A stretch of DNA of 20,312 bases from a virus, in the IMG/VR virus record IMGVR_UViG_3300010883_008773, positions 1 through 20,312 of that record. One strand, 5' to 3'. The position numbers and the translations under genes were made by a program. Each line of letters begins with the position of its first letter. Position 1 is the first letter of the stretch. The notes below the pieces were generated by a model. It worked only from the letters and a program-made list of their open reading frames with translations. It did not search any database and had not been told where the DNA came from. Below are positions 4,501-9,671 of the stretch, piece after piece.

Positions 4501-5821
4501 TCTGTGTTGTGGGTGCTGTTAATATAGTTGAGGTTGCACTATTTATCGTGGCATCGGTGACATCTACATCTAATGTGGGCGTGCTTATTTCAACTTCTGT
4601 TACCGCATCTATATTTAATGTTCCACTATGGTCAATTTTATTAGTAGTTATAACAGTATTACCTACTGTAAAGTCAGTATCTGCATCGTAGGTCGTGGCG
4701 CTGTGTGCGCCTGTACAGTCTACATCTCCAGCTAATGACAATGTAGCATCTGTAATAACTCCGCTTGTTATAACTGTAGTGCCTACCGTAAAGTCTGTAG
4801 TAGCATCTATTGTTGTACCTTTAATAGTTGTGTGGCTTGAAAGTCCAATAGTAGTCCCATCAATAGCTCCTGCATTACAATCAACAGTTGCAATAGTAGT
4901 CGTTCCAGTAGCAAAATCTTGAGCTGAACTCCAAGTTAAACCACCTGATATAGTTGAAGCAGATATATCTCCACCATCAATGTTTACATTGGTAAGGGCT
5001 TGACTGTTCATATCTTGAGCTGAACTCCAGGTCAATCCTCCAGATATTGTGGCCGCACTTATATCACCAGAATCTATATTAACGTTTGTTAACGCTTGAC
5101 TATTCATATCTTGAGCTGAAGACCAAGTTAAGCCACCAGAAATTGTTGCAGCTGAAATATCACCAGAATCTATATCAACCTTAGTCATATTTTGGTCATT
5201 AAAATCAATGGCACCAGTAGCTTGAAATGCACCTATTTTGGTAGCCGTTAATGTCTGTCCACTAAATGTTAAATCAGCATCGTCAGCTAACAGTCCTGCT
5301 GTCCCTGCAAATGTAACTCGTCCTGAAGTTAAGTCAGAAGCTGTGAATGCTTTAGCAGTAAGTTTATAGTTTCCTATATCAACATGATCTGCTACAGTTA
5401 AACTTGTTATGCCATCAACTGTACCACCATCTATATCAGGGGTATTAAGGTCAGCAGTTGTTATTGTTGGAGAGGTATCCATAACTACCGTAGAGCCAGT
5501 ACCTGTAGTACCACTCACATCTGAAAGCTGGCTTAATATACTAATATGACCACCACTATCACCTGTCGCTCCACCACCATATCCTAGAACCATTACTCCT
5601 GAACTGGCGTTATCGCTAGAAACCTCACTGGTTTGTGCGGATATAGCATCTCCACCTACGCGAAACCAAGAACCAGCATCCTTAACATACATTGCAAGAC
5701 CGCCCTCAATTCTTGCCGCCCACATACTTCCATCTGAACCCTCATTATTACCTGGAGGTCCATTTGTAAATTGTAGTAATTTAGCATCCCTAAAGGCGTG
5801 TCTTCTGGTATCTTGTTTCAT
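1595..5821 (-). CDS. Large repetitive tail fibre / beta-structured structural protein (1408 aa)
   Basis: This is a very long Asp/Thr/Ser/Gly/Ile-rich protein of short strand-turn units (patterns such as LTMDGTTGTI and ITIDSAGTIGIG), typical of trimeric beta-helical phage fibres. The N-terminal ~60 residues, with aromatic WAAR and SWFRVGG patches, probably dock to the tail. Residues ~90-130 carry a GTTGTGSTVVMDTSPTITT segment common in phage fibres. Three 32-residue repeats lie at ~207-302, and 52-residue repeats lie at 457-560 with a partial third. Further similar blocks 292 residues apart fill the middle. The last ~150 residues are less repetitive and may hold a tip or trimerisation domain. 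The ATG at 5821 shares one base with the stop of the upstream gene (TAATG) and has no good SD, so translational coupling is likely. Host-receptor contact is inferred. Confidence 0.85.
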   Translation of the reverse strand: MKQDTRRHAFRDAKLLQFTNGPPGNNEGSDGSMWAARIEGGLAMYVKDAGSWFRVGGDAISAQTSEVSSDNASSGVMVLGYGGGATGDSGGHISILSQLSDVSGTTGTGSTVVMDTSPTITTADLNTPDIDGGTVDGITSLTVADHVDIGNYKLTAKAFTASDLTSGRVTFAGTAGLLADDADLTFSGQTLTATKIGAFQATGAIDFNDQNMTKVDIDSGDISAATISGGLTWSSAQDMNSQALTNVNIDSGDISAATISGGLTWSSAQDMNSQALTNVNIDGGDISASTISGGLTWSSAQDFATGTTTIATVDCNAGAIDGTTIGLSSHTTIKGTTIDATTDFTVGTTVITSGVITDATLSLAGDVDCTGAHSATTYDADTDFTVGNTVITTNKIDHSGTLNIDAVTEVEISTPTLDVDVTDATINSATSTILTAPTTQIVATTGAATLDVNATTLTMDGTTGTINYADKLTLDSTTETEMNTALLDINAGTEVELTTATFDVDATTLTMHGTTGTINYADKLTLDSTTETEMNTALLDINAGTEVELTTATFDVDATTLTMSGTTATITYPTTNITASTIVDMTTPELQISGDIDIAGDIDMATGKLITWVDDNTKISGTATTLDLNSDGTINITGPTVDINGTLTSKFVVTGEDQDLQIKALGGGADQTLNFVSQGTSVNAMVFNASAGGMNIDAALGLTIDAGDNMIFTSTTGSIDLETSGEDGDIKIKSAHTTAGSALWIDCNADASSLVNLDAGILDIDASGSITIDSAGTIGIGIDDVDQAINIGTQGERTISIGTGAFPDTINIGNAEGATAVNVTTGSGGLTMTTGTNGNVSIDPHGTGNLTLGSADNTTTALAGNIMTVTSAGTMTIDSGGVLIIDTDGTDNISLGVEAVAKTITVGNAASTMVDINALALDFDGGSITMDGTSVSIDGTLDSNLTVTGSAKDLDIAVAGGGAQELRIVSAGEGDGSPAMKLDVTAGSMKIAPSLIDGRRLALGNSSSTYMAFTPGSAATEKIYIGNVGGTSDLAMKFEAISGGMTLYAGTVFNVDAVGAITIDSSAGTIGIGVDDIDQDINIGTDGERAIYMGYGAKEVTVGIGNSEAETSVTILSGTGDINMGSEDNVGISAKYDISLTTTTADGEIKLVSAHTAGRALHIDCNAHTASEVDIDAGIMTVSTSNTGQSSYALGSAGGINLSPTTHTYHASGKKISWNSDGTDEYIYAGVDSDMELKTSKRLTLRHDNAVGEAANIRQIKLDSKVQVGDSFYFSNATAISDLDPNTYSVTPTVYYPSDNAEGFRYKVNGVNAVAEGEMPTTNNINTINVSGLSWKNTTIDCGTTNVWDIQKSTPEDAESYDGDMTANYSLLGFTNFYRGSDTRKELINGNWYTRNSVGIWEDRDVHT
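4142..4453 (-). repeat. Two tandem 156-bp (52-aa) repeats in the fibre gene
   Basis: Copies occupy 4453-4298 and 4297-4142 (residues 457-508 and 509-560). The two 52-residue units differ at one amino acid (LTMD versus LTMH), while roughly one base in ten differs, nearly always at synonymous sites. A partial third copy (LTMSGTTATI) begins at 4141 and soon diverges. The phase is exact at 156 bp. Confidence 0.95.
4916..5203 (-). repeat. Three tandem 96-bp (32-aa) repeats in the fibre gene
   Basis: The segment encoding SSAQDMNSQALT/NVNIDSGDISAATISGGLTW recurs with an exact 96-bp period; the shared plus-strand marker 'atcttgagctga' begins at 4916, 5012 and 5108. Protein copies are almost identical and the DNA differs mainly at silent positions. 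Each unit probably forms one layer of the fibre shaft. Confidence 0.93.
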
Positions 5822-7026
5822 TATGTATTCTTTAGATGTTTCATTCTATAAACAACATCAATTCCATAGATTTCAAGGCCAACCTGTGTAGCGCCTGTAG
5901 ACCTAAATATTAGCATACAGGTATATATATCTATCATCGGAAGGCTTGTTGTCAGGCTTACTGTTGTTCTTGAGGAGCTAGTTGTAAGCGCGCCTATTTC
6001 TGTTTTAGTATCTCCACCATCAGTAGATAGATAAACTGTAATATTTTCTCCTTTTTTAAAATCGACTCTAACCTCATATACTGTTGTTCTTCTAGCAGAA
6101 TCCCCAAAATCATAGTTCTTTGTAATAAGCTCAAAGTCACCTGTAGCGTATGTCACATCGGTCGCACTCCAGGTATATAAAAAGGCCGAGGATGTATCTA
6201 CCGTTGCTTGACTTAAATATGCCATTTTTTTATCTCCAGCAATGACTGCATTTGTTACCCTTCCAGGGACAACAAGAGAGTTATTATGATAGCTCCACGC
6301 CCCTGTTGCCAGATCACAAACAAACCCTGCCCCATTCCCAGAATCACCGTGCTTATCTACAACTACTAATTTTTTCACACCAGGAACATAATATAGTGCC
6401 ATATTACCTGAAATGCCAAGTTCTGATAGGGCGGAGGCCCAGGTTGGGACATTAACTTCCGCAGGGGTGCTTATATATGTGTCTATTCTTATCTTTCTGA
6501 AATTATCTTTCTCTGTTAATACTACTATTGAGTCCCCATTATATAAATAACAACCATGTGTATTGGCCCAGGCTATTCCATATTCAGTTTTCACAACTGC
6601 GCATGGATGGCCCACTCCCATGTTTGACCTGGTATCTTCTAAATACTCAGTACCCTGTGCCGTATTAATAATATATAGCGTGTTTGTTTTAAACTGTAAG
6701 ACTCTATCAGCATAAGATGCCAGGGCTATAATTTCTTCCCCATCATCCGTAGACACATCTATCAATCTATTTTCAGCAAATGTATCATAACTACCAACGA
6801 CAGACTTATACATTGTGTCTGGATATGTTACGGTGCTACCATCCTGTTTTACTGCAACCACATTACCTATATATGCAACCTTGTTTATAACTGTGGACGC
6901 TTTCCATCTAACCGCTTTAAGCGCTTGCCCGCTTGAAATAACCCTTCCATTTTGGTATGGAGGTTTTGAATATCCAAACTTTTTGCCCACTGGTGCGGGT
7001 GCTACATAGGCATAACTGGTAGCCAT
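5821..7026 (-). CDS. C-terminal half of nozzle / tail beta-propeller protein (401 aa)
   Basis: The sequence resembles the C-terminal half of phage nozzle (stabilising tail) proteins. Near residue 45 it has AVRWKAS...VAYIGNV, then TMYKSVVGSYDTF, LIDVSTDDGEEIIALASYADRVLQFK, LYIIN...EYLEDT and a GIAWANTHGCYLYNGD block. These are successive blade-like strands known from podovirus tail proteins. The C-terminal ~120 residues form a beta domain. In relatives as I recall them, these motifs sit inside one longer protein whose N-terminal half corresponds to the gene directly upstream (9671-7026). Here a separate ATG at 7026 shares one base with that gene's TAA, and the SD (AAGGAG) lies inside its last codons, so the halves are translated as a coupled pair. 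Location in the virion tail is inferred from family resemblance and order. Confidence 0.75.
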   Translation of the reverse strand: MATSYAYVAPAPVGKKFGYSKPPYQNGRVISSGQALKAVRWKASTVINKVAYIGNVVAVKQDGSTVTYPDTMYKSVVGSYDTFAENRLIDVSTDDGEEIIALASYADRVLQFKTNTLYIINTAQGTEYLEDTRSNMGVGHPCAVVKTEYGIAWANTHGCYLYNGDSIVVLTEKDNFRKIRIDTYISTPAEVNVPTWASALSELGISGNMALYYVPGVKKLVVVDKHGDSGNGAGFVCDLATGAWSYHNNSLVVPGRVTNAVIAGDKKMAYLSQATVDTSSAFLYTWSATDVTYATGDFELITKNYDFGDSARRTTVYEVRVDFKKGENITVYLSTDGGDTKTEIGALTTSSSRTTVSLTTSLPMIDIYTCMLIFRSTGATQVGLEIYGIDVVYRMKHLKNT

Positions 7027-7754
7027 TAATTAATCTCCTTGTAAAAGTACGGAAGTTTATCTAACCCTTTATATCTCCACTTTGCGCACATAAATTCCAT
7101 CTTGTTGCGCCATAGATCCCCATAAATATTAGTACATGATGGGTCGTTGTCAATTAAATTATCTATATCGTAATTTTTTGGATGGGATCTGTCGTAATAA
7201 AAATAGCAGTCAACCTTATCTTCACGATGGTCATATACCTCTTTGCCTGTATAATCCTTCATATAAAGAAATTGTGGACATATATGAGGGTTTACAAGCC
7301 TGCCATCCTTTTCTTGAACATAATACAGGGTTTTGAGTATATCTTCGTATATTTCTAAATCTATGTCTTCTTTTAGAGGAGTTATCTGTATATCATAATA
7401 ATGCGTTACTATTTCGTTCCTTGCGTTACTACCTATAAGGTAATAGTTAAACAATCCAGGGTATTTTATCTTCAGCTCTTTTACAACTTTAGTTGCCCTA
7501 ACATGTCCAGTAGCTTTATTATAATACTGTGATATTTCTTGTCTTGCCAAATAATCCCATATTGGCTTAATAAATGGCTTTATCCAGCCTGCCTTGCGAA
7601 CACGCTCCGCCCATTTTATGCCATATTTTTTATATACCCTTGTAAACAGGTTGTTTGTGTTCATAACATAATGTCTGGCCTTATATGTTTGTTTATTGGA
7701 TAATCCATAAAGCTCTATCGCCACAGGGCAACAGTTCCCACCTGGATTATTCCA
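7026..7754 (-). other. Accessory C-terminal module: CFI-box-like segment plus nucleotidyltransferase-like domain
   Basis: This region, residues ~640-881 of the 881-aa tail protein, sits at the junction between the two nozzle halves. Its first part (C647 C648 P V A I E L Y G, then R667 and LFTRVYKKYGIKWA) follows the spacing of the CFI box, C-x6-YG...R...F-x-x-x-Y-Y, with Pro in place of Phe. The second part fits hG[GS]-x(9-13)-Dh[DE]h of Pol-beta-type nucleotidyltransferases with 11 spacer residues, but the second carboxylate is Gln762. D821 in a hydrophobic strand would be the third metal ligand. Activity is uncertain because of the Gln. Confidence 0.5.
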
Positions 7755-9671
7755 ACCTTCAGGACCACCAGGCGGCTCCGTATAGTCTGAAGGTCCCACT
7801 GTATAATCCACCTTTGTAGATTCAGAAACCATTAAAAGACTCTCATCAAGAAGTTGCCAGTAAACCTGCGCAACGCCCTCTGATGTATTATATGCATCTA
7901 TTGAAACACCAACATAAGCAGGATAGGTGAGAGCCGTGTATTCTTTATAAACTGGGCCATTGTGTACTCCATATAATGCCGCGTAATAAACCCTTGCATC
8001 CCTGGCCTCTGTTGGATAATGATTGTCTATATGGGTTAAGGGGAATGTTGCTGTTTTATATGCCTCTGCCGCGGTTAATATGGGCAAAGTTCCCATTGAT
8101 ATGCTCCCTTTAAATATGCCTCTATGATCATCAGTAAATGTAACTAAAACATCACTGTTGGTGGCAGTAGCAATCTTATTCAAAGTCACAGTGTGGAGGG
8201 AAGTTCTGTCAATACTTACGATTCTTGTTGAACTTTGTAAACCAGTACCTGAAACATACATTCCAACCCTTAAATCGTCTGGAGGGGTAATGGCAGAACC
8301 ACCAGAACCATCTTGTATACCAAGTGCTGAAGAGGCAGCAATAGTGGTACAATAATATGTAAATTTATTCCTATATACCTCCCAATAATTCAATTTTGCT
8401 GTTGCTGCGTCTATTTCCTCTAAAATAAACCAGTCTGAATCAAATTGTTCTTGAAAATACAATACCAACCCCTCCACTCTATGATCACCAAAAAGCGAAT
8501 CGGCATTTGTCATATCTCCTAAGAGGTTAACGCTAACATCACCGCAAACAAATAACTGGAACGAAAGACTTCCCTTGGTTAGAGCAAGCCTAAATTGAGT
8601 AGCATTCGTATTGGTGACCTCTTTTATACTTCCAGTTCCTCCACCCTTATACCTTAATGCACAGCCAAACTTAAATGTACCACTCCAACCACCCATGGCG
8701 CTATCAGCAGAACCAGTTTTAGCTAAATATCCAAAAATAATAGTGTTATCTTTTAAAGAAGTACTTGTCTGGGGGTTAAGGCCGTCTAGATCGTGCGCCC
8801 ATACATTTAATGTGTCTATTGCGGATGTTGAGTCCTGGATTCCGCCAGCAAACTTACTAATTTCCATTGCACTGTGTTGGTCTACCTTCCCTGGTACTGG
8901 ATTAAATAAATCTTGTGCTATAAAGCCAAACCAATATGATTTATTATTAGTTTTAGAAAAGTCTATATCAGACACTCTTAATATTGACTCTGTATAATAG
9001 CTATCAAAACCCTTGCCTGTTGTGTCATTGGCAGCTAAATCAGCTTTAGGGACTCTAATCCATGTAGCCGCTGAATCTGGCTTTATCCATAGTGATTGCT
9101 GTTCAGATGGACAAATAGAATACCCCTCACCTCCACCAACTCCTTTAGGATAAGATATCTCTGTAATTGTTTTAAAAGTACTTGTGGCGCTGGTTTCCAT
9201 AAAACCAGACGCACCAGCGTAGTGGAGTTCAATATTAGCAGCTATTGCCCAGGACGTATCTGCAACTCTATAATTATATAAGATTACAGTAGTGCTGTCT
9301 GGAACCGACTGAACTTCTCCAACATTTGCAGTTGAGCCTAGAAAATTCGCTCTATCACCAACTATATTACCCACTGCAAGACCATGAGCGCCACTTGTTT
9401 TCAATTGTACTAAGTTCCACTTCCAATCACTTACAATATATTTAAGTCCGCCTTGTTTGGGAAGGTTTACACTCTCTAATCCATTAAATCCATCAAGCTC
9501 TGTGTCATTGTGTTTTATTGTGTCCCCATTACCCTCCTGAGAAATGGTACCAATACTTGAAAAACTACACCCAATTGCAGACGCGCATTCTTTTTCCTGT
9601 AGATTGTCAGCATTGCTTGCATTATTTAAACCTCCGTAGAATTCTGATATCTGTAGTGTTCTTTTGGCCAC
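7026..9671 (-). CDS. N-terminal half of nozzle / tail protein with extra CFI-box-like and nucleotidyltransferase-like C-terminus (881 aa)
   Basis: The start codon is GTG at 9671-9669. The N-terminus (FYGGLNNASNADNLQEKE..., residues 11-30) is the classic opening of podovirus nozzle/tail-tube proteins, and LRVSDIDF with YWFGFI (near 230-250) and DSDWFILEEIDA (~410) support this. Residues ~86-155 hold an AHGL-type domain. Residues ~440-512 hold a VGMYVSGTGL-type beta module frequent in phage tail proteins. From about residue 640 the protein changes character. A Pro/Gly linker leads to C648-x6-YG...LFTRVYKKYGIKWA, which resembles a CFI-box domain. Residues ~730-881, rich in Tyr/Lys/Asp, carry G747-S748-x-A-R-x-E, D760-I-Q-I and D821 in KVDCYFYY, the layout of a nucleotidyltransferase fold. 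The gene ends exactly where the second nozzle half starts. Confidence 0.75.
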   Translation of the reverse strand: MAKRTLQISEFYGGLNNASNADNLQEKECASAIGCSFSSIGTISQEGNGDTIKHNDTELDGFNGLESVNLPKQGGLKYIVSDWKWNLVQLKTSGAHGLAVGNIVGDRANFLGSTANVGEVQSVPDSTTVILYNYRVADTSWAIAANIELHYAGASGFMETSATSTFKTITEISYPKGVGGGEGYSICPSEQQSLWIKPDSAATWIRVPKADLAANDTTGKGFDSYYTESILRVSDIDFSKTNNKSYWFGFIAQDLFNPVPGKVDQHSAMEISKFAGGIQDSTSAIDTLNVWAHDLDGLNPQTSTSLKDNTIIFGYLAKTGSADSAMGGWSGTFKFGCALRYKGGGTGSIKEVTNTNATQFRLALTKGSLSFQLFVCGDVSVNLLGDMTNADSLFGDHRVEGLVLYFQEQFDSDWFILEEIDAATAKLNYWEVYRNKFTYYCTTIAASSALGIQDGSGGSAITPPDDLRVGMYVSGTGLQSSTRIVSIDRTSLHTVTLNKIATATNSDVLVTFTDDHRGIFKGSISMGTLPILTAAEAYKTATFPLTHIDNHYPTEARDARVYYAALYGVHNGPVYKEYTALTYPAYVGVSIDAYNTSEGVAQVYWQLLDESLLMVSESTKVDYTVGPSDYTEPPGGPEGWNNPGGNCCPVAIELYGLSNKQTYKARHYVMNTNNLFTRVYKKYGIKWAERVRKAGWIKPFIKPIWDYLARQEISQYYNKATGHVRATKVVKELKIKYPGLFNYYLIGSNARNEIVTHYYDIQITPLKEDIDLEIYEDILKTLYYVQEKDGRLVNPHICPQFLYMKDYTGKEVYDHREDKVDCYFYYDRSHPKNYDIDNLIDNDPSCTNIYGDLWRNKMEFMCAKWRYKGLDKLPYFYKEIN

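Follow-up and report, generated by a model that had tools for sequence, protein, structure and literature searches.

The window, by which we mean the whole stretch of 20,312 bases analyzed here, is an entire virus record and probably a fragment. The features listed in Table 1 lie on its minus strand, and their gene set and order are recognizably those of the structural module of a short-tailed phage. The protein of interest is the 881-aa product, for which the family libraries Pfam, PHROG and NCBIfam give no match. Comparison of its C-terminal part with 2.9 million viral contigs found one relative, present in two contigs (L001 and L002), with 53% identity over the final 238 residues of the 881-aa protein. 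Using the window domain, the nozzle back half and the free-standing nucleotidyltransferases (NTases) described below as queries, tblastn against 50,697 phage records returned no meaningful relatives, and NTase profiles run twice over 84,980 prokaryote genomes found none; no cultured phage relative was found in our searches, which included those phage records. L001 (4633-5127) and L002 also carry a SET-domain gene (PF00856, E 1e-9), which in L001 separates the coiled-coil virion gene from the nozzle front half; the window has no gene at this place.

Table 1. Genes and segments of the structural module in the window
Feature	Position	Strand	Gene order	Evidence
Portal		-		PF16510/phrog_156
SU10-type major capsid protein		-	after portal	PF17236
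SU10-type adaptor		-	after capsid gene	PF24175, E 1.6e-5, slightly short of cut-off
Coiled-coil protein, 1231 aa		-	after adaptor	
881-aa protein (nozzle front half plus NTase-like end)		-	after coiled-coil gene	
Nozzle-like tail protein front half, residues 1 to about 428, GTG start	8388..9671	-	within 881-aa gene	N-half profile hits on the N-terminal region of unsplit nozzles, E down to 1.7e-34
Extra segment, residues about 429-643	7743..8387	-	within 881-aa gene	in split nozzles, past the part alignable to unsplit nozzles
CFI-box-like segment, residues 648-710	7542..7730	-	within 881-aa gene, just ahead of NTase-like domain	profile-profile match to CFI-box sequences
Degenerate Pol-beta-type NTase-like domain, residues 724-881	7029..7502	-	end of 881-aa gene	alignment with L011/L065/L017 NTase ORFs, BLASTP, AlphaFold, Foldseek, Pfam on homologues
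Nozzle back half, separate 401-aa gene	5821..7026	-	after 881-aa gene	homologous to C-terminal part of single-gene nozzles
Repeat-rich fiber-like protein, 1408 aa		-	after 401-aa gene	

Both the 881-aa and the 401-aa proteins are homologous to single-gene nozzles, and the window therefore encodes its nozzle-like tail protein in two genes; the 881-aa product supplies the front half alone, plus a fused NTase-like end, a point that the original prediction had missed. Its assignment as a nozzle is suggested by gene order, with the SU10-type adaptor upstream, and by propeller-like repeats and weak kelch-propeller profile matches; nozzle profiles run against solved structures retrieved no solved phage nozzle and nothing convincing. 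The N-half profile aligns with unsplit nozzles as far as approximately position 455 of its 573 positions, and the extra segment beyond this ends in a strand pattern ("LLDES") that looks Ig-like and may be so. The 401-aa gene has its own GGAG ribosome-binding site, and its start overlaps the stop of the 881-aa gene by 1 nt (TAATG; sequence 7010-7046). A pair of cysteines, C647-C648, lies ahead of the gene break, and we set aside the idea of an intein, since a separate ribosome-binding site and start serve the back half and Pfam found no intein family.

A profile of the 401-aa back half retrieved 56 loci. The nozzle is a single gene without an NTase domain in 35 related loci, and a split at this point was found only in the window, L001/L002, L011, L065 and L017. 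Unsplit nozzles have no NTase, all split ones have it, and in every NTase-bearing lineage found (about four) the nozzle is split right there, with the NTase stop running into the back half as TAATG. An NTase profile applied to 40 related virus records matched only in the split loci. The family varies elsewhere as well. In five loci (L034, L035, L036, L039 and L045) the first ~100 residues of the nozzle form a separate ORF of 139-147 aa just upstream (e.g. L034:5287-5727), which gives the nozzle a second point of division. Five others (L012, L015, L038, L040 and L042) have nozzle-like genes of 1550-1780 aa, in which the region before the conserved back half reaches ~1200-1400 aa, far above other relatives.

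The original prediction had placed a Pol-beta-type NTase-like domain at the C-terminus of the tail protein, at residues ~730-881 (7026-7484). The domain is indeed at the C-terminal end, but it is slightly longer than that, beginning at residue 724, and positions 7026-7028 are the stop codon. The residues quoted for it are all present: FNYYLIGSNARNE with G747 and S748, D760-I-Q762-I, and D821 within KVDCYFYYD. The window segment by itself has no meaningful Pfam, PHROG or NCBIfam match, Pfam NTP_transf_2 (PF01909) included, so homologues were needed to show the NTase relationship. These come from L011, L065 and L017, each of which has, between the nozzle halves, an ORF of ~150 residues homologous to residues 724-881 of the window protein (BLASTP 34% identity, E 2e-20 for L011; 26% identity, E 4e-13 for L017). 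The ORFs of L011 and L017 pass the PF01909 gathering cut-off of 21 bits, with 26.1 and 24.1 bits, respectively. A profile of five NTase sequences gave weak matches in the PDB, including the MntA antitoxin (best E 0.014), 2rff, CdnE and an aminoglycoside nucleotidyltransferase. A PADLOC scan of the NTases yielded only marginal, scattered matches, and Pfam recognized no HEPN gene among the nine window proteins scanned from this 20.3-kb fragment.

Each free-standing NTase ORF shares about 17-35 nt with the end of the front half and a single nt (TAATG) with the start of the back half. We considered that a programmed frameshift might join the front half to the NTase in these relatives, and the frame of the NTase ORF is +1 relative to the front half in L011, L065 and L017 alike; however, a separate start codon is present near the overlap in every one of these ORFs, and no obvious slippery motif was seen.

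Structure prediction agrees with the NTase assignment. The AlphaFold model of the window segment has a pLDDT of 72.9, and most of its NTase core lies at 73-95; that of the L017 protein has a pLDDT of 87.7 and a pTM of 0.82. The window model has the order helix-strand-(G-S)-strand-helix-strand (alpha-beta-beta-alpha-beta), which is that of the NTase core, and Foldseek searches of the PDB with the window and L017 models placed AAD(9), HI0073, MntA, 2rff, AadA, Pol beta and Pol mu on top, with NTase-superfamily entries throughout the 50 matches listed, at modest E-values (best 0.024 for the window model and 0.0058 for the L017 model). The L017 model also matched, from end to end, the predicted structure of a BFVD viral protein, A0A516ML51 (TM 0.67, E 7.2e-5). 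Given the Pfam-recognized homologous ORFs, the predicted strand and helix order and the Foldseek results, residues 724-881 are a Pol-beta nucleotidyltransferase superfamily fold, and in this the original prediction was borne out.

Its reading of the active site fared less well. Alignment with the free-standing homologues and with MntA, whose D39-I40-D41 falls at the catalytic D-x-D, puts this motif at D33-I-D35 in L017 and at D-Y-D in L011 and L065. The window has Y758-Y759-D760 here and L001 has Y-Y-D, which makes D760 the second Asp of the pair rather than the first, as had been supposed; the first is replaced by Tyr758. Q762, earlier taken for the replacement of the second metal-binding carboxylate, occupies no catalytic position in the same alignment. 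Nor is D821 the third Asp: it aligns with Lys in L011 and with Tyr in L017. The third acid is instead D68 in L017 ("RVDAQI"), the Asp of "PIDTQI" in L011 and an Asp in L065, and its place is taken in the window by N794 ("LVNPHI") and in L001 by Asn. Conservation among homologues, which had been proposed as a check, held for G747, S748 and D760, which together with R751 are invariant across all five homologues, and failed for D821. The Gly-Ser of the phosphate-binding loop and the Arg three residues after the Ser (R751 after S748) are kept.

L017 and L011 retain all three catalytic acids, while the two fused copies (window and L001) are left with one of the three carboxylates. The window copy should be catalytically dead, because by known chemistry the loss of two of three metal-binding carboxylates abolishes activity. 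Between an enzyme that modifies a host molecule and a dead fold reused for binding, both of which had been entertained, these losses favor the second, a dead fold that would now serve for binding. A pseudo-active site retaining one Asp, the Ser and the Arg could still bind a nucleotide, and action with an unusual residue is less likely.

Just ahead of the NTase-like domain, and only in the fused copies (window and L001), lies the CFI-box-like segment. With hhalign, residues 648-710 matched a CFI-box profile at a probability of 81 and P of 1.2e-5, and slices of the fused proteins containing little or none of these residues scored far worse (0.004 to 0.24). A CFI-box consensus served as the search bait, and the profile was built solely from the retrieved sequences, ten plasmid-borne and one from a phage record. 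Remote homology of the segment to the CFI-box is probable. It shares with CFI-box-CTERM (NF041770) the pattern C-x-V-A...Y-G...R...R-x-Y...A, but it is internal rather than C-terminal, has lost the FRD motif and is missed by the NCBIfam model, which gave no match at E <= 10 to the window protein and none in its own record or the 40 related records.

The NTase-like domain is well kept between the fused copies. Identity between the window and L001 is 56% for this domain, against 26% for the front half, 48% for the CFI-like segment, 36% for the back half, 38% for the coiled-coil protein and 40% for the adaptor; the capsid protein end (68%) alone is above it. The best kept parts of the domain are the degenerate motif blocks themselves, with 17 of 21 residues identical in 743-763 and 10 of 13 in 789-801, a comparison of one pair, the only two fused sequences known (window and L001/L002). 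This pattern argues for a retained function and against decay. For the free-standing form, comparison of L011 with L065 gave dN 0.063, dS 0.51 and dN/dS 0.125, and the NTase is by this measure under purifying selection between them. The NTase ORF of L011 (4126-4575) has 84-92% nucleotide identity to L065, the front half about 60-79%, and dS is 0.51 in the NTase and 1.03 in the front half; this contrast may hint at exchange of the NTase module.

At one site, then, the NTase gene is seen in three states: absent with the nozzle intact, present as a separate gene that retains its active-site residues, and fused, with two of those residues replaced. In a tree of the back half the window, L001 and L017 group together (97/93) and L011 and L065 lie elsewhere, and a single origin of the nozzle split was not rejected (p-AU 0.36). 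The simplest story would be a single capture, after which the window/L001 branch fused the gene to the nozzle and lost catalysis.

We consider it moderately probable that an NTase was captured, fused to the nozzle front half and turned into a non-catalytic tail-tip domain. The fused domain would descend from a gene that relatives keep free-standing between their nozzle halves, as the shared position, split and TAATG junction suggest, and we infer that the change ran in this direction. In the window the NTase-like domain is joined to the front half through the CFI-box-like segment. It would most likely be carried on the virion, as an accessory domain displayed where the chain of each nozzle subunit is interrupted. 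Because the break follows the N-terminal part and precedes the conserved back-half region, the display site may be near that of the extra domains of the SU10 nozzle, which are inserted between propeller blades 2 and 3 (PMC9509320). The nozzles of SU10 and T7 resemble the one described here in the placement of the gene after the adaptor and the presumed beta-propeller, and that of SU10 in the insertion of domains into the propeller; they differ in that here there are two genes and an NTase fold at the break, and in that sequence comparison with solved nozzles detects no match. Since the carboxylates are missing, we favor a role in binding or assembly over one as an enzyme: the domain might hold together the nozzle halves or neighboring tail parts, or alternatively grip a nucleotide-like or envelope ligand.

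Several other readings should be weighed. One extends to the relatives: in L017, L011 and L065 a competent, co-translated NTase might assemble with the nozzle halves in the virion and, at entry, modify a molecule of the host or the phage, the window copy being a later inactivated structural derivative. We regard this as doubtful. Also doubtful, in our judgment, is a dedicated nucleotide- or nucleic-acid-binding module, in which the G-S...R loop and D760 would bind an NTP, nucleotide sugar or DNA and act as a tail trigger or sensor without transfer. The invariance of G747, S748, R751 and D760 in all five homologues speaks for it, and within the fused domain the loop is conserved best, but such conservation may only maintain the fold.

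It is rather unlikely that the domain is what remains of a gene-splitting cassette, in which case an NTase gene would have inserted into the nozzle gene, been tolerated because the nozzle halves reassemble, and later fused to the front half and drifted. There is a precedent in phage Aeh1, whose nrdA is split by the homing endonuclease gene mobE, and free-standing homing endonucleases have overlaps of 11-24 bp and UAAUGA (PMC2988022), which the overlaps of the NTase ORFs (about 17-35 nt; 1 nt) resemble. As in nrdA/mobE, a foreign enzyme ORF lies between the halves of an essential gene with start and stop codons overlapping, and the NTase is in all split nozzles and absent from the unsplit. The intruder here, however, is a nucleotidyltransferase and not an endonuclease, and it is fused to one half in the window; neither an endonuclease nor an integrase or repeat was seen alongside. 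The purifying selection on the free-standing copies (L011 vs L065) and the nearly unchanged degenerate site of the fused copies also count against a drifting relic.

An active tail-borne NTase, altering a surface or cytoplasmic molecule of the host at entry by means of unconventional catalytic residues, is quite improbable: the free-standing relatives keep three acids (D33, D35 and D68 in L017), but in the window the first and third carboxylates are replaced (Y758, N794), and the loss is common to both fused sequences. Finally, a chance motif in an unrelated fold, for which the lack of a direct Pfam, PHROG or NCBIfam match to the window segment could be cited, is very improbable and contradicted by homology to Pfam-recognized NTases and the uniform fold matches.

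The captured and repurposed NTase that we favor is closest to the NTP_transf_2 or minimal NTases (PF01909; MntA 5yep/7bxo, HI0073 1no5, 2rff), which are among the best Foldseek matches and share its G-S loop, Arg at Ser+3 and sheet order, and, in the free-standing relatives, the D-x-D and third acid. The window copy differs from them in having one of three carboxylates, in being attached to a tail protein, where a CFI-box-like segment precedes it, in a longer C-terminal part with further strands, and in having no HEPN partner recognized in Pfam scans. Pol beta has S180...D190-x-D192, and the palm of DNA polymerase X (Pol beta, Pol mu) shares the S-x9-D-x-D spacing with L017 and L011 and supplied many Foldseek matches, but the folds overlap only in part (about 11-14 angstrom rmsd in the long alignments), there are no fingers or 8-kDa domain here, and the Pfam palm match is below cut-off.

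We found no description of an NTase fold in a phage tail nozzle in a limited search of the open literature. The locus carries a warning for annotation, namely that a G-S motif alone is no basis for calling such tail proteins active transferases. The set of three states would form a compact natural series for the capture of an enzyme into the virion and its conversion to a structural part, and the same series may serve to ask whether a two-chain nozzle can work.
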